Source: a virus. Taken from it: a stretch of DNA of 22,590 nt. Positions 563 through 22,590 of the stretch are shown here, piece by piece. The stretch's first letter is position 1, and every line of letters begins with the position of its first letter. A program made the translations under genes and the position numbers. Location: the IMG/VR virus record IMGVR_UViG_3300013137_000107, positions 1 through 22,590 of that record; one strand, 5' to 3'. The notes beneath the pieces were generated by a model, which was given only the letters and a program-made list of their open reading frames with translations, did not search any database and had not been told where the DNA came from.

Positions 563-817
563 ATGAAAAAAAAGTGTGAGGTATGTAATAAACCAGCAAA
601 ATGGCTTTTCTCTCCTGATATGGATATTTCAGGTCTCGGCTCATGTGACAAACACAAAATGGATGTAACCATCGCTTATCATATGCTCATAACCGAAGGA
701 GAAAAGGAATACCACAATATGATTGACTCGTATAAAAAAAGAGACAAGCATCTGCTTGAAAGTAAGAAAACAGTTAAAAAAGTTATTTCAAAAATCAGAG
801 GAGGTGATAAAAAATGA
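563..817 (+). CDS. Small protein with N-terminal zinc-finger-like motif (84 aa)
   Basis: The first 32 residues carry CEVC at 5-8 and CDKH near 28-31, a C..C/C..H arrangement that could bind one zinc ion. The remaining ~50 residues are charged, helical and lysine-rich, probably a coiled coil or a surface for contacting nucleic acid. No family is recognised. The stop overlaps the next start as ATGA (814-817), so it is co-translated with the membrane protein that follows. The function is unknown; small zinc-finger proteins of this sort are common in phage accessory regions. Confidence 0.65.
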   Translation: MKKKCEVCNKPAKWLFSPDMDISGLGSCDKHKMDVTIAYHMLITEGEKEYHNMIDSYKKRDKHLLESKKTVKKVISKIRGGDKK

Positions 818-1056
818 AAAAGGAAACAACGAAAGTGGAAAACAAAGAAATCACATTTCTTAAAGGACTGTATACTGACTTTAAGAATACGATGACCTCA
901 GTGTTTGGAGACGCTGAGGAGGTGTTTAAAAAACACAAGTTATTAATTATTCTTGCTTTTTTTGCCTTCTTGCTTTACAGAAACAAGCAGTTCACGATTG
1001 AACAGTTTGTGAAGAAGCTCGAAGAAAGAATTAAGGAGAAGGAATACGGTGAATAA
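814..1056 (+). CDS. Small single-span membrane protein (80 aa)
   Basis: A near-perfect SD (AGAGGAGGTGAT, 797-808) sits six bases before the ATG, so expression should be strong. The protein has an amphipathic N-terminal half, one hydrophobic segment at about residues 43-57 (LLIILAFFAFLLY), and a charged C-terminal helix rich in Lys and Glu. The next gene overlaps its end. Size, a single span and the position beside two more membrane proteins would allow a holin-like or membrane-anchoring role, but no endolysin is nearby and no family is recognised. Confidence 0.7.
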   Translation: MKKETTKVENKEITFLKGLYTDFKNTMTSVFGDAEEVFKKHKLLIILAFFAFLLYRNKQFTIEQFVKKLEERIKEKEYGE

Positions 1057-1447
1057 TATGGCAGGCCCAGTATCATGGACGGGATCGTCTTTTATAGCAA
1101 CATCAACGTATTATCCAATGAATAATGCGATTTATGCTGGAAGTTCTATCGGTGGATATTCCTCATATGGAACTCCGAACAATCCGTTTGACTATAAAAA
1201 ACAGCGTCAAATGGAAGAAAAAATGCGACAAGAGGAAATGAGATTCTGGACATTGGGCAAACTATCAAATGACCGTAAACAAAGCATTATGAAAATTACA
1301 AAACAGCTACTGAGTGAGCTTAGATTCGAAAGGAGGTGGAAAAACATGACATCAGGAATCAAATGGTTCTTAATTTTTCTTGGATTAGCCATATTTTTAA
1401 ACTTTGGCAAAATCCTAAGTCTTGTTCAGTTAGCAATTAAACATTAA
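1049..1447 (+). CDS. Small membrane protein with Gly/Ser/Tyr-rich N-terminus (132 aa)
   Basis: The longest frame starts with GTG at 1049, inside the end of the previous gene; an in-frame ATG follows at 1058. An AAGGAG at 1033-1038 lies 10 bases before the GTG and 19 before the ATG, favouring the GTG. Residues 1-50 are rich in Ser, Gly, Tyr and Asn and look disordered. Residues 50-100 form a basic, charged helix, and residues ~104-121 form one hydrophobic span close to the C-terminus. A second in-frame start with a perfect SD lies at codon 100 and is listed separately. Function unknown. Confidence 0.65.
   Translation: MNNMAGPVSWTGSSFIATSTYYPMNNAIYAGSSIGGYSSYGTPNNPFDYKKQRQMEEKMRQEEMRFWTLGKLSNDRKQSIMKITKQLLSELRFERRWKNMTSGIKWFLIFLGLAIFLNFGKILSLVQLAIKH
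1346..1447 (+). CDS. Nested in-frame product: 33-residue membrane peptide
   Basis: AAAGGAGGTGG (1329-1339) is followed nine bases after its AGGAGG core by ATG at 1346, in frame with the 132-aa gene. Translation from here would give MTSGIKWFLIFLGLAIFLNF and 13 more residues: essentially one transmembrane helix with a short basic tail. The SD is better than the one used for the full-length protein, so the short form may be the major product. A long and a short form sharing a membrane span recall dual-start holin/antiholin genes, but that comparison is only an analogy. Confidence 0.45.
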   Translation: MTSGIKWFLIFLGLAIFLNFGKILSLVQLAIKH

Positions 1448-1455
1448 AAGCTCTT

Positions 1456-1803
1456 ATGAAAAAAAATATATTGATAGGCGTTATCGTATTACTTGCTGTC
1501 TCATTTTTCATTACGATAAATGATCATTCGACAACAACATCAACAACAGACACAGAATCAAAAACGGTGATTCAGGAGCCAAAGGTTATAACGATGGAGA
1601 AATTCTTGCAACTCAAGGAAGGAATGAGTTATACTGATGTAGTTTCTATTATTGGAGAAGAAGGAGATCTTTCTTCTAGTTCCGAAATAGCTGGATATAA
1701 AACGGTTCTTTATACTTGGAAAGGAACATCTCTGGGCTCCAATATGATTGCAACGTTTCAAAATGACAAGATGGTTTCTAAGTCTCAATTTGGCCTCAAA
1801 TAA
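1456..1803 (+). CDS. Membrane-anchored or exported DUF3862-like protein (115 aa)
   Basis: Residues 1-21 are a signal-anchor sequence: KK, then the hydrophobic stretch ILIGVIVLLAVSFFI. A Thr/Ser/Asp-rich linker follows to about residue 40. The rest carries the pattern LKEGMSYTDVVSIIGEEGDL, a hydrophobic strand containing YTWKG, and a final FQNDKMVSKSQFGLK. This matches DUF3862, a small extracytoplasmic fold related to SmpA/OmlA and beta-lactamase-inhibitor-like domains. No lipobox cysteine is present, so it is likely anchored by its N-terminal helix or cleaved. In a phage it may be a cargo gene altering the host surface; the role is not known. Confidence 0.7.
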   Translation: MKKNILIGVIVLLAVSFFITINDHSTTTSTTDTESKTVIQEPKVITMEKFLQLKEGMSYTDVVSIIGEEGDLSSSSEIAGYKTVLYTWKGTSLGSNMIATFQNDKMVSKSQFGLK

Positions 1804-1850
1804 TTAAAAATTCAATGGTTGGGTTCTCTTCAGGTGGTGAATTTATCTGT

Positions 1851-1876
1851 GCCCCCTCTGTTGTAGCAGAGGAGGC
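1851..1876 (+). promoter_or_regulatory. Stem-loop containing an SD-like sequence
   Basis: GCCCCCTCTG (1851-1860) pairs with CAGAGGAGGC (1867-1876) around a six-base loop: ten positions with one C/A mismatch. The right arm contains AGAGGAGG, a good SD that would be hidden in the stem. There is no T-run afterwards, so it is not a simple terminator. It lies between the DUF3862-like gene and the short ORF at 1898. Confidence 0.5.
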
Positions 1877-1897
1877 GAAATAAGTTCATTCACAAAG

Positions 1898-2053
1898 ATG
1901 TGGGAAGACAAACAAACTCTATTTAAAAATGGAGATCAATATTATCATTTTCATAAAGACAAGCTTTTAAAGCTTGGCTATAAGATAGTAGAGGAAACAT
2001 CTGAGCATCTTGTCTTTGTGCTTGAAAAAAAGAATGAAAAAGTATCAGCCTGA
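1898..2053 (+). CDS. Small hypothetical protein (51 aa)
   Basis: ATG at 1898 opens 51 codons ending in TGA at 2051-2053, overlapping the start of the next gene (2034) by 20 bases. The product begins MWEDKQTLFKNGDQYY and has a C-terminal half of alternating hydrophobic and charged residues (VEETSEHLVFVLEKK), consistent with a compact alpha/beta fold. No family is recognised. The nearest SD-like sequence (AGGAGG, 1870-1875) is 22 bases upstream and sits inside a stem-loop, so the start is uncertain; a non-ATG start nearer the SD is possible. Confidence 0.5.
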   Translation: MWEDKQTLFKNGDQYYHFHKDKLLKLGYKIVEETSEHLVFVLEKKNEKVSA

Positions 2054-2420
2054 AATTGGTCAAGCATTATTTGGTCAACCAACAAAACAACTTGAATGTC
2101 CTGAATATGTTGTTGCACTTCTTGAATCAATCTCAAACGAACTTGGTAGAGTGATGTGGAACATTAAACAAGAAGAATATGCAAGTCCATTTGGTAACAC
2201 TGGTAACAGATTCAAGAACGGCACGTTTGAGGTACAAGCATATAGCTGGGATGAAGAAGTTGTCCAACCATTTAACTTCAAATGGCAAGATGTCGAAATA
2301 AGTTGGTATAAATATCTCGGAAGAGGCTGTAGCATAAATAGACCGATAACAAAGGCCCGCGCGGTAGCCATGTTTAACGACTGCATTAGAAGCATTAGAA
2401 AAATGGACAAAGAGCTATGA
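2034..2420 (+). CDS. Conserved phage protein of unknown function (128 aa)
   Basis: I choose ATG at 2034, giving MKKYQPEIGQALFG, over the upstream in-frame start at 2010, because this matches how I recall the family beginning. Conserved blocks are EYASPFGNTGNRF (~45-58), FEVQAYSWDEE (~65-76), FNFKWQDVEISWYKYLGRG (~80-99) and a C-terminal helix. The many aromatic residues and acidic pairs suggest a compact alpha/beta protein. Homologues with these blocks occur, from memory, in many siphophages and metagenomic phage contigs without an assigned role. It overlaps the next gene by four bases (ATGA, 2417-2420). Confidence 0.75.
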   Translation: MKKYQPEIGQALFGQPTKQLECPEYVVALLESISNELGRVMWNIKQEEYASPFGNTGNRFKNGTFEVQAYSWDEEVVQPFNFKWQDVEISWYKYLGRGCSINRPITKARAVAMFNDCIRSIRKMDKEL

Positions 2421-2665
2421 ATAAAATTAGCAAAAGAAAATTTAACAGTCTCATAAAGGATATTCGAGAAATAGCGCTATCTGCTAAAAAAAGCACCATT
2501 TGTACAGAGTGTAAAGGAGAATTAAGAGATCCGAATCCTGGAGAGCTTTCACTGAATGAGGACATTGTCGGTGTTTGTAAGAAATGTAGAGCTCATTATA
2601 TCGTAGATGAAGAAGGTTCTTTATTCTTAGGAATTCCAACTAAAGAATTTGATAAAATCAATTGA
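2417..2665 (+). CDS. Zinc-ribbon protein (82 aa)
   Basis: The gene begins within the stop of the previous gene (ATGA). After a basic helix (residues 1-27) come CTEC at about 29-32 and CKKC at about 54-57, a typical four-cysteine zinc ribbon. The ribbon is followed by a hydrophobic strand (HYIVDEEGSLFLGIP). No further domain is visible. It may contact nucleic acid or another protein; the family is not recognised. Its stop codon lies within the -35 box of the strong promoter at 2662, so this gene appears to close one transcription unit where another begins. Confidence 0.65.
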   Translation: MNKISKRKFNSLIKDIREIALSAKKSTICTECKGELRDPNPGELSLNEDIVGVCKKCRAHYIVDEEGSLFLGIPTKEFDKIN

Positions 2666-2690
2666 CAAGTTATACATATAATGATATAAT
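2662..2690 (+). promoter_or_regulatory. Perfect consensus sigma70 promoter
   Basis: TTGACA (2662-2667), exactly 17 bp, then TATAAT (2685-2690). Both hexamers match the consensus fully. A second TATAAT at 2677-2682 has the wrong spacing. The start of transcription is expected near 2697, about 30 bases before the HTH gene. The box pair lies between AATTG at 2660-2664 and CAATT at 2692-2696, a possible small operator. Confidence 0.8.
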
Positions 2691-2727
2691 ACAATTAAGT
2701 TAGGTCTATTAAAATTTATACAAAAAT

Positions 2728-2946
2728 ATGAGAAGGTTTCCGTACATAACGGTTGGAAGAATTTTAGAAATGGTTTCAGAGTCTACACAAGGTCAGCTTA
2801 GAATTTCTCGCTCAACGTTCTATCGCCTTGAGAAAGAAGGATTTTTCCAAAGTATTAAAACAATCGGCAATTGGAGACGTTATACGCCATCAGACGCCTC
2901 TATTATAGTGAGTCTCATAAAGAAAAACTACGGATACGCTGATTAA
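2728..2946 (+). CDS. MerR/excisionase-like helix-turn-helix DNA-binding protein (72 aa)
   Basis: The 72-residue product is a bare winged-HTH domain. An initial strand and helix (YITVGRILEMVSE) precede RISRSTFYRLEKEGFF as the helix-turn-helix, NWRRYTPSDAS as the wing, and a final helix. This resembles the MerR N-terminal domain and phage excisionase/Xis or Cox-type proteins; there is no effector domain. It should bind DNA and act as a regulator or recombination directionality factor. It sits alone behind a perfect promoter, which suggests early or constitutive expression and perhaps autoregulation. No integrase is in the window. Confidence 0.7.
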   Translation: MRRFPYITVGRILEMVSESTQGQLRISRSTFYRLEKEGFFQSIKTIGNWRRYTPSDASIIVSLIKKNYGYAD

Positions 2947-2963
2947 AAGTTTTATATCTAGAT

Positions 2964-3203
2964 ATGAATAGAGTTGTAAGAAAGCTTCAGAATATTTCAT
3001 GGGAGTATGATTTCGATAAGAACGAACTTCATTTGGTTACATCTATAGACGATTTTGTCATTAGTAAGGCTCACACATATAGTCTTGGTCGCTTCCTTGT
3101 AAGAATCTGGCAAAAGCTTGCCTCAAAAAGACGCAAATCTTCTGGAGATTTAAACCGAGCAGTACTTGCATCCATTGAAGAAGAGAAAACCTCGCAGAAT
3201 TGA
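2964..3203 (+). CDS. Hypothetical protein (79 aa)
   Basis: Last gene of the rightward block, 17 bases after the HTH gene, so probably in the same transcript. The first half predicts beta strands (ISWEYDFDKNELHLVTS). The second half is basic and helical (FLVRIWQKLASKRRK), ending in an acidic tail. No family is recognised. It ends 24 bases before the stop of the oppositely oriented resolvase gene; I see no terminator hairpin in that convergent gap. Confidence 0.6.
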   Translation: MNRVVRKLQNISWEYDFDKNELHLVTSIDDFVISKAHTYSLGRFLVRIWQKLASKRRKSSGDLNRAVLASIEEEKTSQN

Positions 3204-3226
3204 CTACACAAGCAAATTTCAAGTGT

Positions 3227-3607
3227 CTAGGTGTCTATTAGTGTTATCTCAAGTTCTGTCTTCCATTCACTGCATCCGACATAACGTTTGAAGGTGCCTT
3301 CCTGAATAAGTTCATCATCAACAATAATTCCTGCATCTTGAAGTATGTCATTGATTGAGGCTATTGCGTTATCAAAATCCTGCTTGTACTTACCTTTGCG
3401 ATAAAAAACATAATCTACCCTAACGGCGCTATCAATAATCTTAAAATCACGACTATAAGTCAATGCTTTAAGCTGAGGAATGGCTACAGACTTGAAATTC
3501 TCATATGCCTCAGAAGGAATACTTATCATCCTGTGCGTATATTTATGAACAAAATTACGTTTCGAATTTTTCTTACTTACCGGGCGTCCTAATATTGTTA
3601 TCTTCAT
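3227..3607 (-). CDS. rusA: RusA-like Holliday junction resolvase
   Basis: The protein starts KITILGRPVSKKNSKR, the usual RusA opening with a basic loop. It then has KQDFDNAIASINDILQDAG followed by IIVDDELI. The Asp pair in DFDN and the Asp of VDD, 18-19 residues further on, match the three catalytic acidic residues of RusA (D70, D72, D91 in E. coli RusA). These enzymes are dimeric endonucleases that bind Mg ions and cut four-way DNA junctions. I use the ATG at 3607; the frame stays open to an upstream ATG at 3619. Both overlap the upstream zinc-finger gene. Being last in the late-strand block is unusual for a recombination gene. Confidence 0.85.
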   Translation of the reverse strand: MKITILGRPVSKKNSKRNFVHKYTHRMISIPSEAYENFKSVAIPQLKALTYSRDFKIIDSAVRVDYVFYRKGKYKQDFDNAIASINDILQDAGIIVDDELIQEGTFKRYVGCSEWKTELEITLIDT

Positions 3608-3773
3608 CTTTAAACTCACGAATAAATGTTAATATCTTTGTTCTGAACATACCACAATTCTCGCAGAAAATCGCCGCCACCGCCTCTATGCTCCTCTCCG
3701 TGGTCTTGGAGACAGAAAATCCTAAAGCTTCAAACTTATGTCTCTGACAATCCTTCTTTTTAGATATATCCAT
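3573..3773 (-). CDS. Small Cys/His-motif protein (66 aa)
   Basis: The protein has CQRHKF near residues 9-14 and CENCG near 37-41, a C..H/C..C set that could form one zinc site. A C-terminal basic/acidic stretch follows. Its end overlaps the start of the RusA gene by 35 bases in another frame, suggesting translational coupling. It resembles in plan the mini zinc-ribbon proteins of the rightward block (151-318, 563-817, 2417-2665), but sequence identity between them is not obvious. Role unknown. Confidence 0.6.
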   Translation of the reverse strand: MDISKKKDCQRHKFEALGFSVSKTTERSIEAVAAIFCENCGMFRTKILTFIREFKDEDNNIRTPGK

Positions 3774-3791
3774 ATATAGATTGATAAATTT

Positions 3792-5030
3792 TTAAAACAT
3801 ACCGCCAAAAATTTGTTCTGTTACAAGCTGTATAAAGGCAACCGTCCTATATGCTGGTTCGTTATTCGCACTATTTGCGGTTGTGTCGGCAGAGGCATAA
3901 TTAGTCGTATCGTTTGATATAGATGAGAATGTGTGGTTTCCGTTTTCTGCCTGTGCGACATTTGATACATTTGCAGTTCCAGTCATAATACGACTATTTG
4001 AGTGGGCGGAGATAGAACTTCCCGAGTGAGTATGCGCTGCTCCCGTATGCGTATGTCCCTGTGCTGCGTGTGTGTGGGTATTTGACCCTCCTGTTGCCGA
4101 AGTTGTGGGGTTACCTATTTTCAGATGTTTGTCATTCATAGGGGTATATAGACTCCACCCAGAAGGTATTTGTGCAGTTCCTCCAAGCCATAAACCGATA
4201 ATGCCTTTTTCCTTTATGCCAGCAACCTCTTTTTTGATAGCGTGTAATTGTCTATATTCTGGTTCAACGGTTTCAGAAGTAGTTAATGAAGTAGTTGTTT
4301 CACTTATCCCTGCTGTTGCCGAGTTTATGGCAAGGGTATGATTATGATTCAACATTATCTCTGAACCTGCAGTTTCTTCTACATATCCAATAATTCCAGT
4401 AGCCGTATTTGAAGTTGAGTTTGCATGACTATGGGCCGATGTTGAAGTATGATTATGAGTAATACTATGTACATTTGTACTTGAACCATTGTCAGTCGTT
4501 AGGTCTGCGTCTGCACCTGTACCTGCACCTTTGAGGTAACGCCCTGATAATTCAGTTACCTTGCTCCAGTTTGAGGGTGCGGTATCGGATTCTCCCCATA
4601 AGGCTACAATACCGGTTGCGAGTTGTGCCCCTGCATTTGCTTTGATAAATATAACCTTCCGATAGGGAGGGTCGTTTGATACCGAGGCATAGGTAGTTGT
4701 ATCTGACGAAGTATCTCCACCAGAAGATACGGCTCCAGATTGTCCTGTGTGGTAATGACTTCCACGCATGGCTCCAACACTGGAAGACTTTCCATTATAA
4801 GAACCAGCATTAACGGTAGAGGTAACAATGGAGTGGGTATGGGCTGCTATTGAGTGAGAATGTGCTGGAGATGTGTGTGTGTGCGTGGAAGAACCTCCTA
4901 TCTGATTGGGTATAACAGAACCATGGCCCTTAGGAAATAAATCAACAAGATTTGGTTCTTGTGACCAATTTGCTGGAATCGTGGCATATGTGCCTGTCCA
5001 GATAAGAATTACGTCTTTGGGGATTGTCAT
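3792..5030 (-). CDS. Tail collar / fibre-like protein with three His-rich repeats (412 aa)
   Basis: Three tandem units of about 135 residues cover the whole protein (~1-133, 137-270, 274-412). Each has a start like ILIWTG..IPANWS or IIGLWLGG..IPSGWS, a Leu/Phe-Lys-Gly turn, a Gly/Ser/Thr stretch dense in HTH/HSH motifs, and an ending like EPAYRTVAFIQ. This is the layout of phage tail-collar and microcystin-dependent-type fibre domains. HxH motifs in trimeric fibres such as T4 gp37 bind iron along the axis; the same is inferred here. It shares its repeats with the N-terminus of the hub gene at 5874. The ATG overlaps the stop of a 37-codon ORF as ATGA. Likely a virion surface adhesin. Confidence 0.75.
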   Translation of the reverse strand: MTIPKDVILIWTGTYATIPANWSQEPNLVDLFPKGHGSVIPNQIGGSSTHTHTSPAHSHSIAAHTHSIVTSTVNAGSYNGKSSSVGAMRGSHYHTGQSGAVSSGGDTSSDTTTYASVSNDPPYRKVIFIKANAGAQLATGIVALWGESDTAPSNWSKVTELSGRYLKGAGTGADADLTTDNGSSTNVHSITHNHTSTSAHSHANSTSNTATGIIGYVEETAGSEIMLNHNHTLAINSATAGISETTTSLTTSETVEPEYRQLHAIKKEVAGIKEKGIIGLWLGGTAQIPSGWSLYTPMNDKHLKIGNPTTSATGGSNTHTHAAQGHTHTGAAHTHSGSSISAHSNSRIMTGTANVSNVAQAENGNHTFSSISNDTTNYASADTTANSANNEPAYRTVAFIQLVTEQIFGGMF

Positions 5031-5140
5031 TGCTTTAGTTTTATTATTTCAATTTCTAATCTTTTTATTTTTTCTTCACTTAATACATTTATGTTTAGTG
5101 CGCCAACGAGATTTACCTTCTCTATTACGATAATTTTCAA
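5027..5140 (-). CDS. Possible 37-residue coiled-coil peptide (TTG start)
   Basis: A frame from TTG at 5140 ends with TGA at 5027, forming an ATGA overlap with the fibre gene. The product, beginning MKIIVIEKVNLVGALNINVL, ends in a Leu/Ile heptad-like helix (EEKIKRLEIEIIKLKQ), reminiscent of a short oligomerisation helix. It overlaps the ORF at 5076-5207 in another frame, so both are probably not genuine. The coupling to the fibre start and the regular helix favour this one. There is no good SD. Confidence 0.4.
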   Translation of the reverse strand: MKIIVIEKVNLVGALNINVLSEEKIKRLEIEIIKLKQ

Positions 5141-5207
5141 ATAAATAAGAGATCCCACTAATAGTAAGAGTTTTTGAATCTTTCACATTTGCGGGAATAG
5201 AAACCAT
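5076..5207 (-). CDS. Possible 43-residue basic protein
   Basis: ATG at 5207 lies just after the stop of the 59-aa gene and opens 43 codons ending in TGA at 5076. The product starts MVSIPANVKDSKTLTISG and ends in a strongly basic stretch (REGKSRWRTKHKCIK). No family is recognised. About half its length is overlapped by the 37-codon ORF in a different frame, so one of the two is probably not translated or both are remnants of an older gene. Confidence 0.4.
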   Translation of the reverse strand: MVSIPANVKDSKTLTISGISYLFENYRNREGKSRWRTKHKCIK

Positions 5208-5208
5208 A

Positions 5209-5388
5209 TTATTTTTCTATCACACCAGACAGACGATATAGATTCTTCGGATAGAGTTTCTTCGCTCGCTCCACCGCTTCGTCATAGCTGTTGGCGTAAA
5301 GCTCAAAATTGATAACCTCTGTGATACGACCATCTTCCATTTTTGCATCGTATCCTTGTATAAAAAAGATCATTTTTGTCTTTTTCAT
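5209..5388 (-). CDS. Small hypothetical protein (59 aa)
   Basis: ATG at 5388 opens 59 codons ending in TAA at 5209. The product begins MKKTKMIFFIQGYDAKMEDG and has an amphipathic helix NSYDEAVERAKKLYP, giving a beta-hairpin plus helix pattern like small dsRBD-like or 'DUF' phage mini-proteins. No family is recognised with confidence. It lies in line between two tail genes on the late strand, which supports it being real, and its stop is two bases before the next candidate start. Confidence 0.6.
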   Translation of the reverse strand: MKKTKMIFFIQGYDAKMEDGRITEVINFELYANSYDEAVERAKKLYPKNLYRLSGVIEK

Positions 5389-5417
5389 ATCTCTATATAA
5401 ATAATTAATAATAAAAA

Positions 5418-5837
5418 CTACGCTATGGTTGTTGGCATTGTCTCCAACATAACATAAAGATCAACCGCAGGAGAAGAAACTGTTACATCTAGCGTAACTA
5501 CCTGGCCCGCATTTATTGTATTCGTAGAGAAAGTGTCGGTGTTGGTTGAGGTTGAGGTTACCTCATATCCTGCATGAATGTCTACACCATCTTTTCTTAT
5601 GCGTATAGTACAAGTCCCAGATGTTGTTTTTGCATAAAGAGTTTTAACTGTTACTGCCTGAGGACAGATCCACTGCATTCCTTGAGTGTCTTGGACTGCA
5701 ACGCTACCCACAAAGCCCCACGAAAAAGCTCTATAAGAAGCATCCTCGGCGGCTGTTTTAAGGTTGGCAAAATTAGTGTTTACCTGTGACGAAGATGCTT
5801 TTGTATTTGGATTGAATGAAACAAGTGAAATAGCCAT
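5418..5837 (-). CDS. Small tail / receptor-type protein (139 aa)
   Basis: The N-terminus (FNPNTKASSSQVNTNFANL) is the common opening of phage tail-tip and fibre proteins. It is followed from about residue 38 by a beta-rich domain with SWGFVGSVAV, VTVKTLYAKTTSGTCTIRIRKDG and a regular alternation of Thr/Ser/Val to the end. This suggests a jelly-roll or lectin-like module exposed on the virion. It lies directly after the hub gene and before the second fibre gene, so a role at the adsorption end of the tail is likely. No catalytic motif is seen. The function is inferred from context and composition. Confidence 0.65.
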   Translation of the reverse strand: MAISLVSFNPNTKASSSQVNTNFANLKTAAEDASYRAFSWGFVGSVAVQDTQGMQWICPQAVTVKTLYAKTTSGTCTIRIRKDGVDIHAGYEVTSTSTNTDTFSTNTINAGQVVTLDVTVSSPAVDLYVMLETMPTTIA

Positions 5838-5873
5838 GTATTATTTAGTTAATTAATAATATCATATCACACA

Positions 5874-8642
5874 TTAAACAACAGTTGGCGTGGTTGGATT
5901 CGCCAGCGTTTGCGTCTGCTCAAGATTACGATACACATCCTCTACGCGCTTTGCAATCTCTGGGAGTCTTGATGACGCCTCAATTCTTAAATAATTAGGA
6001 TGATATTCTATTGATTGAATCTGAATAATGTCCGCAGCCTGATATGCAAGAGTTTGATCCCAAACATCTTGATCCCAAGTAAAGACGTCCCAATAGGTAA
6101 CAGTTTTTTTTGGCTCCTTCATGTTCCTTATTCTAAATGTCTGTCCTGGTTTTACTGATTCAATATCATATCCAATATTATCAGGATGACCATTATTATC
6201 AAGAAGCGTAATTATGGTACGAACCTCAGGATCTTTCTTCTTATTGAGAATACGATTTGCAAGAATATCTGCCGTTCCAGTCAGTGTAACGCGTTGATCA
6301 ACGTATTTATACGCATGTATGCCATATGAAGAAATAGAGCCTGAGTTTGAATATACGCGATAAAGATTAACTCCAGCCGTCTCTCCTCCTACAAAATAGA
6401 TTCTATTAATAATATCTTCTCCACGCCTCCATATTTCCATTCCTGATATGTGCTTGCCAATAAGAAAGTTATAGTCTGCTTTATTTATATTTGAAAGCTT
6501 AAGATAAAACATATTATCTGCATCCATTCTCCAATACCAATTCTCAGGCGTAAGTTCAATTATCTTGTCAAGCGCTTCTTTTACTGTGTTGCTTTGAAAT
6601 GTATAGGAAACAACTGTGGCAGTATCGTCAACCGTTGAGTCCGTATAGCTTACAATCGCACCATCAGCTCGCGCATAGTCTATAACATTCTTCGCAATGG
6701 TTGAAGGATCAAGCGTAGATTGACTAACCTCTGTGGCGCCGGTTTCAGTTCGAAGCATTATAGAGCCAAGTTGTGCTACATATGGAAGAAGTGTTATTTC
6801 TACATAGTCCCGCGAACCCTCAAAAATAGGTCTGTATCCTGATATGTATCCGTTATATATGCGAACACCATTTACACTATCTCTATCAAAACACCAAACT
6901 TCGACTCTGTTAAACAGTTTCACATCAACGTCTTCTCCAAAATCATCAAACGTTCTGTCAAGTTGGACAATAAGTTCTCCTGGACCGCCATTTATCACCA
7001 TTCTAAATATTGGTTCAGAGATTACCTCTTTTGACCATGCCGTTATAAAGCTTAGATTTACCGCATCATAAACACGATACTCATATCCCTTCTGAAAAGA
7101 TGTAGACGAAATAGAAAACTTAATGTGTGAAGAAACTGGCGTAGTCGTGACTATATTTTGCTTAGAGGATATTTGATCATAAATGTGTACCACCATGATT
7201 GTTGCCTTTACGCTTGATGGATTTTGTTCGTTCTTTCTTATGATGTCTGCCTTTACAAAACTATGTGCAACGCCTTCTCTTAGCTTTGCGATTGCACTGC
7301 TTGACCATGATACGTCCTTATAATATATCCATGCCTTAGAGGAATTGTCGCTACCAATATCAAACGTTGTTGTCAACATGATGAAGGCATTTGTTCTGAA
7401 TGGAGGCTGATTTCCGTCGCCCGTTGTGGTCTGGGCGCTCATTGAGGTAGAGCTAAACGTCATACTCGTACTTGAGCCGCCCGTTGCACTTACTGAATGA
7501 TTATGATCTCTTGGAGTATTATCACTTCCGGTTCCATGTGCTGACTCTCCTGAATTACCAACGCTTGTTGAGTGTGTGTGACCAGCTCCTATATTGTGTT
7601 CGCTTCCGTGACTGTTGCTTGCTGCGTGATCGTGCGTGTTTGCGCCTCCCGTATTACCAAGCTCGCCAGTTGCATTTGCAAACTTAACAAACTTATCTCT
7701 CATGTCTGGCGTCGCGCCAGTTCCGTCACAAAGAGTCCAACCAGCCGGAATACTTCCAGTTGCGCCAAGCCATAGTCCAATTAATCCCGTAGGCGCAGTT
7801 TCTCCATCAGCCTGTCTCTGAACTCCAAGAAGTTTTTTATATGCCGGTTCTATTGTCCCGCTTGTGAGCGTTGCAGAATAGGTTCCTGTGGTAATGGTTA
7901 CGTTGCCCCATGTAGTAGGATGGGTGTGATTCATCGAAGAATACATGCCCGTCCCCTCGTTATAAATATTTTGAGTAGTTGTTGGACCGCCAGTAGAACC
8001 GCCATGAGAGTGTGTTGTTGAGTGTGTGTGCGATAGGTCGTGTGTGTGTGTTAAAGAACCACCAGTTGTACCCGCGTCTCCACTGGTCGTAGCTCCACGA
8101 GGATATTTATTACCAAGAGCGGGCGAGCCATTTGATCCATCTGTACAAAATCGCCAATTACCAGGTGCCGTTGTAGTATTCCAAAAACCAATCATGTCGA
8201 TAGAAAAGGTTGAGGAAGCGCCTGCCTTTATGAAAATAAGATCATGATATGGTGGCCTGTTATTGGTTGAAGAATCGGCTGGATAAGTTACCGCACTAGA
8301 AGCATCACCCCCCGTTGTGCTACTTGAAGTTCCATTATTATGATTGTGATTTGAGAACGCGGTTGGATCTCGGTTTGTACTTCCTCCAACACGTCCTTCG
8401 GTAGCGTTTGTGCTGTTTGTACTTACTGTGTGAGTATGTGAGTCGGTTTTTGTGTGAGTGTGAGTGTTGCCAACGTGCGTATGTGAGTCATTTCCTCCAG
8501 TATTGTTTGGCGCAGTAGAATCGCCCCATGCCTTAATAAACTTGTCGTCTAGTGTTGTTTCGCGAGACCAGTCAGCAGGAATAAGACCGTTTTCAGACGG
8601 CCATATGAAAATTATGTTCTGCGGAATCGTTCTATTCGCCAT
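5874..8642 (-). CDS. Tail hub protein with three N-terminal collar-like repeats (922 aa)
   Basis: Residues 1-~425 are three units of the collar type: IIFIWPSENGLIPADWS, IGFWNTTTAPGNW and IGLWLGATGSIPAGW starts, His-rich HTH/HSH stretches, and PPYHDLIFIK, EPAYKKLLGV and PPFRTNAFIM ends. Residues ~426-545 form a beta-rich linker domain. Residues ~546-922 look like a siphovirus hub/Tal-type minor tail protein: FRMVINGGPGELIVQLDR, then NRVEVWC, YNGYISGYRP, and a C-terminal part with YHPNYLRIEAS. The hub closes the tail tube and anchors fibres. No peptidase motif is seen. The position after tape measure and Dit is as expected; the repeats fused ahead of the hub are unusual. Confidence 0.75.
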   Translation of the reverse strand: MANRTIPQNIIFIWPSENGLIPADWSRETTLDDKFIKAWGDSTAPNNTGGNDSHTHVGNTHTHTKTDSHTHTVSTNSTNATEGRVGGSTNRDPTAFSNHNHNNGTSSSTTGGDASSAVTYPADSSTNNRPPYHDLIFIKAGASSTFSIDMIGFWNTTTAPGNWRFCTDGSNGSPALGNKYPRGATTSGDAGTTGGSLTHTHDLSHTHSTTHSHGGSTGGPTTTQNIYNEGTGMYSSMNHTHPTTWGNVTITTGTYSATLTSGTIEPAYKKLLGVQRQADGETAPTGLIGLWLGATGSIPAGWTLCDGTGATPDMRDKFVKFANATGELGNTGGANTHDHAASNSHGSEHNIGAGHTHSTSVGNSGESAHGTGSDNTPRDHNHSVSATGGSSTSMTFSSTSMSAQTTTGDGNQPPFRTNAFIMLTTTFDIGSDNSSKAWIYYKDVSWSSSAIAKLREGVAHSFVKADIIRKNEQNPSSVKATIMVVHIYDQISSKQNIVTTTPVSSHIKFSISSTSFQKGYEYRVYDAVNLSFITAWSKEVISEPIFRMVINGGPGELIVQLDRTFDDFGEDVDVKLFNRVEVWCFDRDSVNGVRIYNGYISGYRPIFEGSRDYVEITLLPYVAQLGSIMLRTETGATEVSQSTLDPSTIAKNVIDYARADGAIVSYTDSTVDDTATVVSYTFQSNTVKEALDKIIELTPENWYWRMDADNMFYLKLSNINKADYNFLIGKHISGMEIWRRGEDIINRIYFVGGETAGVNLYRVYSNSGSISSYGIHAYKYVDQRVTLTGTADILANRILNKKKDPEVRTIITLLDNNGHPDNIGYDIESVKPGQTFRIRNMKEPKKTVTYWDVFTWDQDVWDQTLAYQAADIIQIQSIEYHPNYLRIEASSRLPEIAKRVEDVYRNLEQTQTLANPTTPTVV

Positions 8643-15795: not shown

Positions 15796-16806
15796 TTACG
15801 CCCCTGTGTTGAACTTTAACTGGAACGGTTCGCCGATAACCTTTAGCGCCAACGCTTCTACTATAAAAGAAATATAGGAGAAATATGCTGACGGAACGTC
15901 AACGCGCGACATAGGAATCAGCTCTTCCGATTCAATCCACACCTCACCACCTGGTGACTTTTCAGTCAAAAGGAGACCTCCGTAGCCAACAAAACGGCTC
16001 GGTTTGACCTCGATAAGACTTCCAGTTACTGGATTAACCACTTTTGCAAGAGCTAATCCCCCAACCACACCAGCTTGCTGTCCTTGATTAATTACGACCC
16101 TCTGAATCGATCCAGTTGTCTGGAGATCATCAGCGAGTGCCTGTAATTGTCTCGGAGAAGCAATGAGCAGTGTAGGATCAGAACCGTAAGCGTATAGTGT
16201 ACGACACCATTCGCCAACTCCAGAAGCTGTTACAAACGTAGCAACTCCAGAATTAGTTGTGATCTGTGCGTTAAGACCTGAGAACTCATTTGAGCGAGTG
16301 TCAGCATCTCCAGCAATGAGCATTTCCTCTTCGCCGAGCATCACCTCATACATCTTAATTCTCTCACGAGACTTCTGCATGTCAGGTTGTCCATCTCGAC
16401 CTCTAGAAGCTGCCAATGCCAAACCACCCACCTCCAACTTACGACCAAGGAGCTTATAGACCGCTGTTTCAGTACCATAAGTCTGTGACGTTTCGTTAGG
16501 AGCGCCAGCATCTGCAAACGCTATAGATGAGTTCGTTCCTGTGATTCCAATAAGGCTACCAATTCCTGTATGAAGTCCACTTGTCATTTTCTTCCATACG
16601 GCGGCCTGACCCTTTCCAACAGTCCTCGGAATTCTATTTCGGAGAGGAGTGTCAGTAGGAACAAGCAGTTTAATTTCCTCATCCAAATTTTCAGGAGAGA
16701 AAACTGAACGTGACGAAGGACTAAAAGTGTAAGACGAAGTGGTCTCAGCAGACTTACGAATCAGTTCTTTGATTTCCTCAATTGTACCTAGAACTTCTGT
16801 ATTCAT
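15796..16806 (-). CDS. Major capsid protein (336 aa)
   Basis: Position after protease and scaffold and before the connector, a size near 340 residues, and sequence pattern indicate an HK97-fold capsid protein. Features are an N-terminal helical segment with TIEEIKELIRKSAETT, then LDEEIKLLVPTDTPLRNRIPR (E-loop side). Next come QTYGTETAVYKLLGRKLEVGG and a long spine-helix region RIKMYEVMLGEEEMLIAGDA. A late PRQLQALADDLQT and a strand-rich end with VDVPSAYFSYISF close it. It should assemble as pentamers and hexamers. The SD AAGGGGGTGATT (16811-16822) is the strongest in the block with good spacing (nine bases), consistent with the most abundant virion protein. Confidence 0.85.
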   Translation of the reverse strand: MNTEVLGTIEEIKELIRKSAETTSSYTFSPSSRSVFSPENLDEEIKLLVPTDTPLRNRIPRTVGKGQAAVWKKMTSGLHTGIGSLIGITGTNSSIAFADAGAPNETSQTYGTETAVYKLLGRKLEVGGLALAASRGRDGQPDMQKSRERIKMYEVMLGEEEMLIAGDADTRSNEFSGLNAQITTNSGVATFVTASGVGEWCRTLYAYGSDPTLLIASPRQLQALADDLQTTGSIQRVVINQGQQAGVVGGLALAKVVNPVTGSLIEVKPSRFVGYGGLLLTEKSPGGEVWIESEELIPMSRVDVPSAYFSYISFIVEALALKVIGEPFQLKFNTGA

Positions 16807-18764: not shown

Positions 18765-19451
18765 TTAAAGAACTTTCGTTAACGTGTCAAAGTATGTATT
18801 GGTAACTGAATACACTCCTTTGAGTGCTATTTGCTCTTTGATTGTCTCTTTAAGCTGCATAATAAGTTTGGTAAAAGCACCCTCATCCATTCCTTGAGCC
18901 TTTGCCTCATCAATCATGAAAGCAAGTGCGTTTGCCATTTGGATAAGCCTATCTGCATTTCTGAGTCCATAGTTGGGATCTTTCTCCACAATTGGTCCAG
19001 GTTCACCAGTTGATTTTTTTTTCATATCAATTTTGACAAGACTAAAGGTGGCGCTCGGATTCGCTGGCCTGTCAACAAGCGAAATCTCATTAAGGACAAG
19101 GTCTTCAATATTATTACCGACCTTTTTAACAACCTTTCCGCCAATAGAGAAGCCGTTATAAACACCTTCTTTGACTTTCTTCCATGCCTGTTCATCAACA
19201 ACCTTAGCCACAAGATACAGTCCTTTCTTGGTATTATCCACACTTGCCTGAATAGCCTTGCCAACCGCAGACCATTGATGCATTTCGCGAATATTAGCGT
19301 ATTTCATGTAATCAGGCAGAGCCCTCTCTACCGCCGCCAACTTAACAACTTCTCCTTGAGAATCAAGATCCTCCGTGGTTGCATATCCGGCGACGATTCT
19401 CTGGTCGTTATCTTTTTTCTCAAACGGAAGGTAAAGCTTAAGGTCATCCAT
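18765..19451 (-). CDS. XkdF-type prohead protease (228 aa)
   Basis: The N-terminal ~145 residues carry the XkdF / peptidase S78-like pattern: RIVAGYATTEDLDSQGEVV (~18-36) and IREMHQWSAVGKA with His58. VKEGVYNGFSIGGKV with Ser102 and LNEISLVDRPANPSA (~120-134) follow. His58 and Ser102 are the expected catalytic pair of the herpesvirus-assemblin-like serine protease fold. This enzyme trims scaffold and capsid protein during maturation. The C-terminal ~80 residues are a helical, Met/Lys-rich tail. It heads the head operon, behind the promoter at 19537-19565 and a terminator-like hairpin; no SD is visible before the ATG. Confidence 0.85.
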   Translation of the reverse strand: MDDLKLYLPFEKKDNDQRIVAGYATTEDLDSQGEVVKLAAVERALPDYMKYANIREMHQWSAVGKAIQASVDNTKKGLYLVAKVVDEQAWKKVKEGVYNGFSIGGKVVKKVGNNIEDLVLNEISLVDRPANPSATFSLVKIDMKKKSTGEPGPIVEKDPNYGLRNADRLIQMANALAFMIDEAKAQGMDEGAFTKLIMQLKETIKEQIALKGVYSVTNTYFDTLTKVL

Positions 19452-19568: not shown

Positions 19569-19865
19569 TTATATAAAATCAGAGTATATTACACCACGCC
19601 CTCTTATGTTAGAACTTTTTGGCATATAGATATCGTAAGTGTATCGTGTCGCCCGAACATTCGAGATTGCATACTCTGTTTTACTATTTGTTACAACTAC
19701 GGATGTCTTTGTCGAACTATCCCTTCTTGTATTTGCAACTAAGATGTTTAACTTAGCGGTTACTGTCTGGGTAACCAGTATGTAGTTTTCAAGCAGTAAA
19801 TTACTACCATCTTCATTAAGAAGTGTTCCACCATCTTCTTTTAATATTTTGCAGTAAGAAATCAT
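19569..19865 (-). CDS. Hypothetical phage protein (98 aa)
   Basis: The N-terminus has ILKEDGGTLLNEDGSNLLLE, an 'EDG..LL.E' pattern I have seen in small phage structural proteins. The rest is beta-rich, with repeated Val/Thr stretches (LVTQTVTAKLNILVANT; TSVVVTNSKTEY) and an aromatic end. It looks like a small beta-sandwich, perhaps a decoration or fibre-associated protein. It is the last gene before the protease promoter and lies downstream of the HNH island. No SD is seen at the ATG. The function is not established. Confidence 0.5.
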   Translation of the reverse strand: MISYCKILKEDGGTLLNEDGSNLLLENYILVTQTVTAKLNILVANTRRDSSTKTSVVVTNSKTEYAISNVRATRYTYDIYMPKSSNIRGRGVIYSDFI

Positions 19866-19885: not shown

Positions 19886-20005
19886 CTACCATGCACTACA
19901 ACATCTGTCGGCATGCCCTACAACATCTGGCGGTTTGGTTCGTGGTCGCTCTATTTTAGGGAAGTTTTCCCACCGTATACTGTAAAACCATTTCAAAACT
20001 TCCAT
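19886..20005 (-). CDS. Doubtful 39-residue ORF overlapping the decayed gene copy
   Basis: ATG at 20005 opens 39 codons (beginning MEVLKWFYSIRWENFPKIER) to TAG at 19886. It overlaps the start-less gene copy (19956-20090) in another frame and runs through two 22-bp tandem repeats. There is no SD and no recognised family. It may be a chance frame in decayed DNA; it is listed because it is the only ORF covering the 19866-19955 stretch. Confidence 0.25.
   Translation of the reverse strand: MEVLKWFYSIRWENFPKIERPRTKPPDVVGHADRCCSAW
19890..19933. repeat. Two tandem 22-bp repeats
   Basis: Copies at 19890-19911 and 19912-19933 begin CATGC and end CGG, with 20 of 22 positions identical. They lie just past the decayed gene copy. 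A 22-bp unit is not a multiple of three, so they are not a coding repeat. Confidence 0.75.
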
Positions 20006-20090
20006 GGTTCGTACTTACCCAAGTAGGACTAACCACAATTCTATAACCCATACGATCACAAAGTTGTTGATACTTACCTTGTTTTAACGA
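19956..20090 (-). pseudogene. Start-less partial second copy of the 67-aa gene
   Basis: This open stretch of 44 codons runs from just after an in-frame stop (20091-20093) to TAA at 19956 and has no suitable start. Its translation contains YQQLCDRMGYRIV, then SPTW, and ends TVGKLP. The intact neighbour at 20714 has YEALCTRMGYFIV, then SLVW, and ends TVGLLPKNNA. The match covers residues ~23 to the end of the 67-aa protein; the first ~22 codons are missing. The HNH gene's stop (20074) overlaps its beginning. It is therefore a diverged duplicate cut off at its 5' end by the HNH gene, not an exon of the intact copy. Confidence 0.7.
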
Positions 20091-20676
20091 TTAACCAATA
20101 ATAAAGAAAATCCCAATCTAATGTTGTTTTTTCAGCCAATGTTTTTAAGTCAAAGTTCTTACCATCAATTATAATCCTATGAGTATTTTGTTTATTTCTT
20201 GCCTGTTTATAAACTGGTATCCATGCACAATTTCCTGGAACATACCCTTTATTAACATCAATTCTTTCAATTGAATATCCTGCTTTTGGTTTTTTCCCAA
20301 CGTCATTATAAAATTTTAGAAAATCTTTATTCCATTCTGAATCAATATTAATACCACGCCCTCCGTAATAATTAAATGATTTATTATTTGGATTATTACA
20401 TCTATCTTTAATAGAACACCAAGTGACATATTCTGGTAAACGTTTATATCCTACTGATGCCCCGTTTTTTAAATTGGCTTCGTGGGCTCGTTGTTTTTGT
20501 AAACAACCACAACTTTTAATTTTATTCTTCCTTAAATGATAACCTTCAACAATTTTAGTATTACCACACTCACAAGCACATAACCACATTAATCTACCAG
20601 ATTTACTTGATTTAGCTAACTTAATAACAGTAAGTTTGTTAAACTTCCTACCAACCATCTCTATTTTATGTGACAT
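20074..20676 (-). CDS. HNH homing endonuclease, copy 2 (200 aa)
   Basis: I use the ATG at 20676 (MSHKIEMVGRKFNKLTV), because the frame's upstream part overlaps the 67-aa gene and a promoter lies just before this start. The N-terminal domain has CACECGN and KSCGC (four cysteines, zinc-binding). The nuclease core has WCSIKDRCNNPNNKSFNYYG, GRGI..D..W, and SIERIDVNKGYVPGNCAW, the HNH-family pattern of phage free-standing homing nucleases. The C-terminal part (FDLKTLAEKTTLDWDFLYYWL) is likely a DNA-recognition helix region. It should cut a site in the uninvaded version of this locus and spread by repair. A partial gene duplicate lies immediately downstream. Confidence 0.85.
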   Translation of the reverse strand: MSHKIEMVGRKFNKLTVIKLAKSSKSGRLMWLCACECGNTKIVEGYHLRKNKIKSCGCLQKQRAHEANLKNGASVGYKRLPEYVTWCSIKDRCNNPNNKSFNYYGGRGINIDSEWNKDFLKFYNDVGKKPKAGYSIERIDVNKGYVPGNCAWIPVYKQARNKQNTHRIIIDGKNFDLKTLAEKTTLDWDFLYYWLIVKTR

Positions 20677-20682
20677 ACTCTT

Positions 20683-20711
20683 ATTATACATCACATAATT
20701 ATAAATAGCAA
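20683..20711 (-). promoter_or_regulatory. Promoter placing the HNH gene's ATG near +1
   Basis: On the minus strand TTGCTA (20711-20706), 17 bp, TATAAT (20688-20683). The -10 is perfect and the -35 matches four of six. The expected start of transcription (about seven bases after the -10) coincides with the ATG at 20676, so the mRNA may be leaderless; the next in-frame ATG is at 20658. Confidence 0.5.
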
Positions 20712-20713
20712 GA

Positions 20714-20917
20714 TTATGCGTTGTTTTTAGGTAGCAAGCCAACCGTCAAATTAACCTTAGAACTCCACGTTCCATCGTCCCTTGCTATCCAAACCAATGA
20801 CGGGACTATAAAATAACCCATACGAGTGCATAAAGCCTCGTATTCTTTCTGGAAGTCCTCTGCCGTTGGCTTCTTGACTTCTACCTGTTTGACCTCATCA
20901 GTTTTGATGTTTGTCAT
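20714..20917 (-). CDS. Small phage protein, intact copy (67 aa)
   Basis: The N-terminal ~20 residues are charged and probably flexible (KTDEVKQVEVKK). Residues ~23-63 form a compact domain with EYEALCTRMGYFIVPSLVW and a final TVGLLP. No named family is recognised, but a diverged partial copy lies 600 bases downstream, which shows that this domain is a real, evolving unit. It follows the 91-aa gene by 20 bases and lies between the two HNH genes. No SD is seen. Its position next to a tail-fibre gene suggests a virion accessory role, without direct proof. Confidence 0.6.
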   Translation of the reverse strand: MTNIKTDEVKQVEVKKPTAEDFQKEYEALCTRMGYFIVPSLVWIARDDGTWSSKVNLTVGLLPKNNA

Positions 20918-20937: not shown

Positions 20938-21213
20938 TTAGCTACCGCTTACTGCGTCCCCCTCAAAAGCCTCGATTGAAGCGATTTCTGCTTCCAGTTC
21001 CGCTTTCCTGTCGTCAAGTTCTTTTTTGGTTACAGCCGTTACTTGGTCTGCCACCTGTTCGTAAACTGGCGGGACTTGAGTCAAGTCTGGCTCATACTTT
21101 TTTTCATACACGGCATAGGTTAAAGCGTCCTCGTTCTCCTCGTTGGTCTTTTGGACTTTGTTTATTAGTCCTTTTGCTTTTTTATCTGCGTATTCTTTTA
21201 GTAGGTTGTACAT
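20938..21213 (-). CDS. Small coiled-coil protein (91 aa)
   Basis: A perfect SD (AAGGAGGTGA, 21221-21230) precedes the ATG. The protein is highly charged: a first helix (LLKEYADKKAKGLINKVQK), a middle Tyr/Pro-rich part (YEKKYEPDLTQVPPVYEQV), then a long acidic coiled coil (KKELDDRKAELEAEIASIEAFEG). No family is recognised. The SD lies directly after the HNH stop, so this gene was probably the original neighbour of the tail-fibre gene before the HNH arrived. A chaperone or trimerisation role for a fibre is possible but unproven. Confidence 0.65.
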   Translation of the reverse strand: MYNLLKEYADKKAKGLINKVQKTNEENEDALTYAVYEKKYEPDLTQVPPVYEQVADQVTAVTKKELDDRKAELEAEIASIEAFEGDAVSGS

Positions 21214-21230: not shown

Positions 21231-21917
21231 TTAAGCTGATGTTAATAATGTTGTTGCTACTATTTTACTCTTTAGTATATCAAATTGGTTTTTTAACTTT
21301 GGTGTAGACAATGCCTCCTCTGGTTTCCACCCCAACCTTTTTATTCTTAACCAAATCGTATCATAAGAAACGATAGCCCTTTTATCTTTAACCCACTCGC
21401 TCAATGTTTGAGTAGTTCCCCAAGCAGTTAAATTCAAATTACGCCTTGTATTGTTGCAGTTTATTTTTCCAGAAGTCCATCTGCAATTTTGTGGGGAATA
21501 GCCTTTATTGTTATTGATTCTATCTATTTGTAAATTATCCCTATACCCATTAGCTCTTGCCCATTGACTAAAAGTAATGTAAGAATTTTCCCATTCCTTA
21601 CAAACATTTATTCCCCTTCCCCCATAATATTTGTAATACTTATGAGTCGTCCTCAAACACCTATCCTTGATATTTATCCAAATCCTATACAATCTGCTAT
21701 TCTTACTTTCTCCGTGCGTGGTTGACCTAATCCGTAAATTTTCTCTTGCCACGCATCCGCATGAAGTCGTATGATTGTCTTTCAGATTACTAATGGAAAC
21801 ATCTGTCTTATTTCCACAATCACATTGACATATTCTATGATTCCGTCTAACAGAAAGACCAACAACTGTTAGTTTGCCAAACTTTTGCCCATTAAGATAT
21901 TTTCTTATTTTTCTCAT
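21231..21917 (-). CDS. HNH homing endonuclease, copy 1 (228 aa)
   Basis: I use the ATG at 21917 (MRKIRKYLNGQKFGKLTVVG); the frame is open to 21944 near the fibre stop. Cysteines in CQCDCGN and TSCGC form the N-terminal zinc site. The nuclease core follows: THGESKNSRLYRIWINIKDR, KYYGGRGINVCKEW and LQIDRINNNKGYSPQNCRW. The C-terminal part (WGTTQTLSEWVKDK and YDTIWLRIKRLGWKPEEALS) matches the small DNA-binding repeat (NUMOD-like) seen in phage HNH endonucleases. It is related in plan to the copy at 20074 but clearly diverged, so the two are separate arrivals or an old duplication. It separates the fibre gene from the strong SD of the 91-aa gene. Confidence 0.85.
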   Translation of the reverse strand: MRKIRKYLNGQKFGKLTVVGLSVRRNHRICQCDCGNKTDVSISNLKDNHTTSCGCVARENLRIRSTTHGESKNSRLYRIWINIKDRCLRTTHKYYKYYGGRGINVCKEWENSYITFSQWARANGYRDNLQIDRINNNKGYSPQNCRWTSGKINCNNTRRNLNLTAWGTTQTLSEWVKDKRAIVSYDTIWLRIKRLGWKPEEALSTPKLKNQFDILKSKIVATTLLTSA

Positions 21918-21952
21918 AACTATATGATACAGTAAAGTCATCATATTGTCTA

Positions 21953-22590
21953 CTATCCAACCAATGTTGTATTTTGGAGTTTTGTCCTCACATCTTCTAA
22001 AGTTTGGCGGATGTTCTCATAAGCCACCCTTAAAGCGTTTAAGTCTGTTAGTTGGGCGTATGGCGTCCCCGCTTGGGCGTTATCTATGCCCGTATATGCC
22101 ACGCTCTCATTGTCCGCAGTATAAGCGATAAAAGACTGTTGAATAATTGGCGTTCCTGCGAAAAACCCTATCTTATTTCCAAGTGTCTGAATTGCGATTG
22201 TTTGGGTTCTGTCTGTCGTTCCGCTTGCCCCCGCAACACAACCATAGATAGCAACTCCACTTTCACCCGTTCCAGTTGATAAACCACCCTGTAATAATAA
22301 ATTACCGCCGTTTTTATCTGTTGCCCCACTGGTTGCCCCGCCCGCTGTTATGGTAAGTGTGTTACCTGCCGTGTTGGCTGTTGTATGCCTTTCCATCCAA
22401 AATACTCTTGCTGAATTGCCTCCTAAACTTAGCAAATTAGTAGGTGCCGTCGTCCCGATGCCGACGTTGCCTGCTATTGAAGAATTACTTGTTCCCTGGA
22501 CTGTAAGAGTGCCTGCTTGTACAACATTACCACTAGTGTTTAAACTCCATTTATTTATAAAACTTCCAAAAGTAGACCCTTTGGCTGTTC
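21953..22590 (-). CDS. Tail fibre-like protein, C-terminal part (211 residues visible, 5' end outside)
   Basis: The frame is open to the right edge. The visible part contains SGNVVQAGTLTVQGTSNSS and GNVGIGTTAPTNLLSLGGNS, a repeat style typical of tail-fibre and spike proteins. A Gly/Thr/Ala-rich region follows (TITAGGATSGATDKNGGNLL, GGLSTGTGESGVAIYG) and then a helical end (TDLNALRVAYENIRQTLEDV). The GNVGIGTT turn is usual before a trimerising C-terminal domain. I would not treat TTG at 22435 as a start, because the reading frame continues upstream with matching sequence. It lies upstream of the protease, an unusual place for a fibre gene. The identity of the missing N-terminus is unknown. 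Confidence 0.7.
   Translation of the reverse strand, partial: TAKGSTFGSFINKWSLNTSGNVVQAGTLTVQGTSNSSIAGNVGIGTTAPTNLLSLGGNSARVFWMERHTTANTAGNTLTITAGGATSGATDKNGGNLLLQGGLSTGTGESGVAIYGCVAGASGTTDRTQTIAIQTLGNKIGFFAGTPIIQQSFIAYTADNESVAYTGIDNAQAGTPYAQLTDLNALRVAYENIRQTLEDVRTKLQNTTLVG

Follow-up and report, generated by a model that had tools for sequence, protein, structure and literature searches.

Free-standing homing endonucleases pull flanking sequence into recipient phages. For the T4 endonucleases SegF, SegG and MobE, intronless homing or marker exclusion with co-conversion of flanking sequence has been shown genetically; their genes adjoin the gene acted on and are inherited with its flanks, and we found no displaced gene stump described for them in the review's treatment of these enzymes (PMC2988022). 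The HEG-islands of phages, as outlined by Barth, Dunham and Seed (2023, PMC10448857), consist of homing endonuclease genes that flank virion-gene cargo at the boundaries of genetic exchange. For phages, it is established that free-standing endonucleases cause co-conversion and that cargo can lie between two endonuclease genes. In fungi, the outcome may include a remnant of the displaced gene. In Torulaspora and Lachancea yeasts, WHO elements home repeatedly at FBA1, and the 3′ end that this gene once had persists past the endonuclease gene; the result is a full-length, resistant allele upstream, then the endonuclease gene, and last a 3′ fragment that stems from the displaced sequence (Coughlan et al. 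2020, PMC7282813). In fungal mitochondria (atp6, atp9, cox2 and nad3 of Glomus sp., atp6 of Allomyces), the mORFs bring in a foreign C-terminus together with an endonuclease ORF and leave the native C-terminus downstream of it, the native and inserted ends falling in different clades (PMC3630166). We found no description in a phage of this order of intact gene, nuclease and displaced stump.

The locus analyzed here lies on a 22,590-base contig from an uncultured virus, studied over its whole length (the window), with late genes encoded on the minus strand. In the direction of transcription, the gene order is fibre end, HNH2, g91, A, HNH1, R, g98 and protease:

21953..22435, minus strand: tail-fibre-like protein, C-terminal part, homologous to the fibre of the virus contig L093 (38% over 87 aa, E 1e-14)
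21231..21944, minus strand: HNH2, second PHROG 374 HNH gene (profile match E 1.4e-61)
20938..21213, minus strand: g91, 91-aa ORF immediately upstream of A, matching in position a 79-aa ORF in L070 and a 100-aa ORF in L093
20714..20917, minus strand: A, intact 67-aa gene, predicted helix and beta-hairpin
20683..20711, minus strand: TTGCTA-17-TATAAT, a promoter-like site by consensus match only, in the gap separating the A stop from the HNH1 ATG
20074..20676, minus strand: HNH1, PHROG 374 HNH endonuclease gene, 200 aa (profile match E 1.7e-61)
20074..20095, minus strand: joint where HNH1 lacks its 3′ end and the stump gene its 5′ end, from alignments to relatives
19956..20081, minus strand: R, remaining 3′ part (stump) of an A-family gene, with 41 codons and a stop but no start codon, matching A residues 23-63
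19569..19865, minus strand: g98, 98-aa gene, short relative of long repeat proteins encoded ahead of the protease in related phages
18765-19451, minus strand: S78 protease, a late gene
15796-16806, minus strand: SU10-type major capsid protein (MCP), a late gene

MCP searches turned up relatives solely among virus contigs and MAGs of Patescibacteria; 50,697 phage records gave none. This distribution relates the phage to phages of Patescibacteria and makes a Patescibacteria host likely. Three smaller features were observed along the locus. Promoter-like sites, again consensus matches only, stand right before each HNH gene in the gap past the stop of the upstream gene (the site listed above and 21924-21952, minus strand). 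The spacer between R and g98 contains a 22-nt unit repeated twice head-to-tail with 91% identity (19890-19933). The g98 product is a miniature of the very long 'NSAKANI'-repeat proteins encoded 5′ of the protease in relatives (L061:26-2722; L002:3572-7546).

The first-pass annotation had read 19956-20090 as related to the 67-aa gene A, minus its first ~22 codons and its start. Protein alignment bore this out: R aligned to residues 23-67 of A with a best score of 103 and 44% identity, against a mean of 23 (sd 4) and a maximum of 48 in 2000 shuffles, and the tblastn E value was ~2e-8. In addition, A and R each separately matched the A-family gene of L070. The open frame of R begins at 20090, right after an in-frame stop, while recognisable homology starts at ~20081 (Gln23 of A). 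Its 41 codons contain no internal stop and no frameshift, and no ATG, GTG or TTG precedes Met33. The chance of such a frame staying open is ~0.03 for the base composition of R. Most of the predicted helix 19-33 and both strands are retained, so that the predicted fold of A is nearly complete in R; A itself gave no Pfam or PHROG match and no credible PDB fold match. The nucleotide alignment of the two copies, proposed in the same annotation as a check, gave 46% identity over the 41 codons and a single exact 13-nt match, over RMGY. Given this low identity and lone 13-mer, R is a diverged relative rather than a fresh duplicate, and the description 'truncated duplicate' is better worded as 'truncated diverged relative'.

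Both HNH proteins belong to PHROG 374, with zinc-ribbon-like Cys motifs, a YGGRG...GY.P.NC core and a profile match over most of the protein. HNH1 ends in FLYYWLIVKTR. Comparable family members, the one in Staphylococcus phage EW72 (L103) included, run on for ~8-12 residues of the form R(I/L)..G.(S/T).E.A(L/I); the HNH1 3′ end is clipped by ~8-12 codons relative to the family, exactly at the joint. As already noted in the first-pass annotation, the HNH gene ends inside the R stretch: its stop codon (20074-20076) gives an overlap of ~8 nt with the homologous part, R lying in the +1 frame relative to HNH1. HNH1 has thus lost its 3′ end, and the stump gene its first 22 codons, at one and the same joint (~20074-20095). 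No evident slippery site was seen that would support an HNH1-R frameshift fusion. HNH2, in contrast to HNH1, is cleanly placed between the fibre stop and the ribosome-binding site of g91, and a search beside it for a stump of g91 or of the fibre gene found none. The g91-A pair is bracketed by these two HNH genes. Only ~37 nt separate the A stop from the HNH1 ATG and there is no gap after HNH1, which leaves no room for a group I intron; Rfam searches at gathering and permissive thresholds detected no group I or II intron either, and a group I intron reading was rejected.

To find two full copies of A next to each other without the HNH gene had been suggested as a check. Two HNH-free relatives were obtained, both distant, and each has one intact A directly following a small ORF. 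The Patescibacteria MAG L070 carries the 79-aa ORF, A, a scaffold-like gene and the MCP, the contig ending in the upstream gene; its MCP is 69% identical to that of the window, which places it in the same capsid lineage. In L093, the order is fibre, 100-aa ORF, A, 63-aa ORF, protease and MCP. Its fibre and A match their counterparts in the window, and its MCP and protease gave no match to those of the window. L093 was reached only by alignments that included L070, viral-contig searches that used A, by itself or together with R, having yielded no match. At the protein level, the closest homologue of A shares 53% identity with it. Among the 15 virus records searched, A was found in L093 alone, the 14 records of MCP relatives showing none, and an A profile run in ~1,160 look-ups of Patescibacteria genomes (overlapping draws) retrieved no further clear member. 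Weak profile matches in these genomes (E 1e-4 to 1e-2) fell mostly within long open frames, often of ~600 aa, and were dismissed as chance, as was a tblastn match in MW202679 on the strand opposite a helix-turn-helix gene. No phage with either the donor or the resident arrangement was found.

To place the two alleles, identities were counted over the 41-42 shared columns: 23 for R and L093, 22 for A and L093, 18 for A and R, 17 for R and L070, 16 for L093 and L070, and 13 for A and L070. By raw identity R is nearest to L093. The best maximum-likelihood quartet grouped A with L093 against R with L070. In the AU test, A and R as sisters gave p=0.027, and R with L093 gave p=0.18 and was not rejected; this test is weak because there are only four A-family sequences and R provides 41 columns. 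A and R would thus be divergent alleles rather than recent sister duplicates, the four-sequence test disfavouring the sister grouping. Analysis of third-position GC content (GC3) revealed 47% for g91 and A together, compared with 31% in 160-codon blocks of the late backbone (sd 4, maximum 41), and a backbone-like 27% for R, values to be read with the noise of short genes in mind (one early 67-codon gene reaches 55%). Tree, capsid type and GC3 are concordant, though each is weak, and suggest that A, with g91, is the incoming allele and R the resident one.

In HNH relatives, the proteins encoded on one side of the HNH gene were also compared with those on the other in search of homologous pairs. 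No pair of an intact and a truncated gene was found in 52 virus-contig loci, 4 Patescibacteria loci and 16 phages. The one flank match among the Patescibacteria loci was between neighbouring HNH genes; one of these genomes holds several related HNH genes within ~2.5 kb (L098, G016:C2:1048-3462). In Staphylococcus phage EW72 (L103:1956-3843), the HNH gene is flanked by members of a tandem gene family with three intact copies, an arrangement that keeps alive the possibility of tandem paralogues at our locus. Other mobile-looking elements were seen in the relatives. A different HNH-type gene sits directly 3′ of the major capsid gene in two of them (L056:11067-11693 and L057:1838-2476), a further likely homing spot. 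In L056, a phage with a related MCP, positions 698-8449 form a single open frame of 2583 aa, by eye an apparent fusion of nucleotidyltransferase, DNA ligase, methyltransferase, HNH and beta-lactamase-fold parts with ~3 intein-like insertions. The 967-aa portal/MuF-like protein of L093 (667-3570) has, also by eye, an apparent intein near its C-terminus.

We consider it about an even chance that the locus arose as a scar left by homing-type replacement, in which incoming A and HNH displaced a resident A-family gene and left its last 41 codons behind as R. Under this model, the free-standing HNH endonuclease would have arrived with the preceding A, perhaps also with g91 and HNH2. The nuclease of a co-infecting donor phage would have cut the resident gene, presumably near codon 22; homology repair of the upstream side would have copied the donor A and HNH1; and the other side would have been closed illegitimately, from within the HNH1 3′ end onto the resected resident gene, clipping both. 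The resistance of A to the nuclease and the direction of transfer are parts of the model that we infer. Replacement is supported by the A/R homology, the truncation of both partners, the HNH-free single-copy relatives, the second HNH gene on the opposite side and the atypical g91-A composition. Counting against it, the clipping of HNH1 is equally expected from a plain deletion in a tandem array, and, as far as such few and distant relatives can reveal it, A carries no chimera break at codon 22, the sign that strict WHO homing would give. The evidence base comprises four A-family sequences and one contig.

The main competitor, possible but held at well under even chances, starts from two diverged A-family genes in tandem, between which HNH1 settled; a later deletion would have fused the HNH1 3′ end to codon 22/23 of the second copy, producing the stump without homing. 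Truncation of both partners at one joint is what a deletion predicts, and the EW72 locus shows that an HNH gene between intact tandem paralogues exists. Against this, both relatives bearing A are single-copy and 14 MCP relatives lack A, the atypical g91-A composition is left unexplained, and, since the sister grouping of A and R is disfavoured, the pair would have to be old. The first-pass annotation had proposed a tandem pair in which the HNH element replaced the 5′ end of one member: a tandem ancestor is still conceivable, single-copy relatives and the disfavoured sister grouping speak against a tandem pair, and simple replacement is too clean an account because HNH1, too, is truncated at the joint, in its 3′ end. 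It had also offered a foreign allele brought in by co-conversion. That kind of event is the one favoured here, with the roles probably reversed, A being atypical in composition and R resident-like. In the original version, R would be donor-side flank carried in with an HNH gene located inside or just before an A-family gene, making R foreign and A resident. The distance of R from A (46% nt) and its 60% identity to the allele of another phage would fit; it is the g91-A pair that is atypical in GC3, though, and repair by homology through R should have exchanged the 3′ end of the resident A, which instead stands complete upstream, so we regard this version as improbable.

Two further readings appear more doubtful still. 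As the joint is known from a single uncultured virus contig, two phages might have been joined in assembly through a nearly identical HNH gene, fibre-g91-A-HNH coming from one and R-g98-protease from the other. Collapse inside common HNH sequence does not predict an HNH gene clipped exactly at the R joint, and the downstream order g98-protease-MCP agrees with that of relatives; an assembly chimera is accordingly very improbable. Finally, the open frame and nearly whole predicted fold of R would suit a working 3′ exon, or a cassette for swapping, which when spliced to or recombined with the 5′ part of A would provide an alternative C-terminus. This we consider the least credible of all, with neither a group I nor a group II intron detected, A complete without R, and the nucleotide identity of A and R too low for homologous switching.

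Returning to homing-type replacement, the locus resembles WHO elements and mORFs in that an endonuclease gene separates a full-length gene from a 3′ fragment of it, that (distant) relatives have one intact copy and that, on few sequences, the alleles are divergent (44% identity in protein, with the nucleotide and AU values given above). It differs from WHO elements, which are intein-derived zinc-finger nucleases acting on FBA1 in yeast chromosomes, in having a PHROG 374 HNH gene in a phage beside the small gene A and one stump; its endonuclease gene is moreover truncated where it meets that stump, and cleavage by HNH1 is here a prediction. The mORF nucleases are of the LAGLIDADG or GIY-YIG type, and their hybrids were demonstrated against very close relatives, which are lacking here. 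With HEG-islands, the locus shares endonuclease genes on both sides of a cargo, HNH2 and HNH1 around g91-A. The islands in the published account (PMC10448857) are large and of high nucleotide identity between phages, whereas the cargo here is two small genes, and a displaced-allele stump was not found in what that account describes. Since the nearest A homologue is 53% identical and no close relative occurs in the searched collections, in place of high-identity cargo common to divergent phages, the locus was not filed as a HEG-island.

A scar in which the incoming allele and the one it displaced can both still be read in a single genome is, to our knowledge, rare. From sequence comparison, we tentatively propose that phages may carry elements of the WHO/mORF kind, in which a free-standing HNH gene and a recoded, cut-resistant neighbouring allele (A, perhaps g91-A) drive replacement and leave a 3′ stump, an idea we hold as a possibility well short of an expectation. 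If true, the succession of intact gene, nuclease and headless stump would be a signature for which phage genomes can be scanned. It would also connect homing in phages with the elements that replace gene ends in yeasts and in fungal mitochondria, and would place such elements in a virus lineage kin to phages of Patescibacteria.
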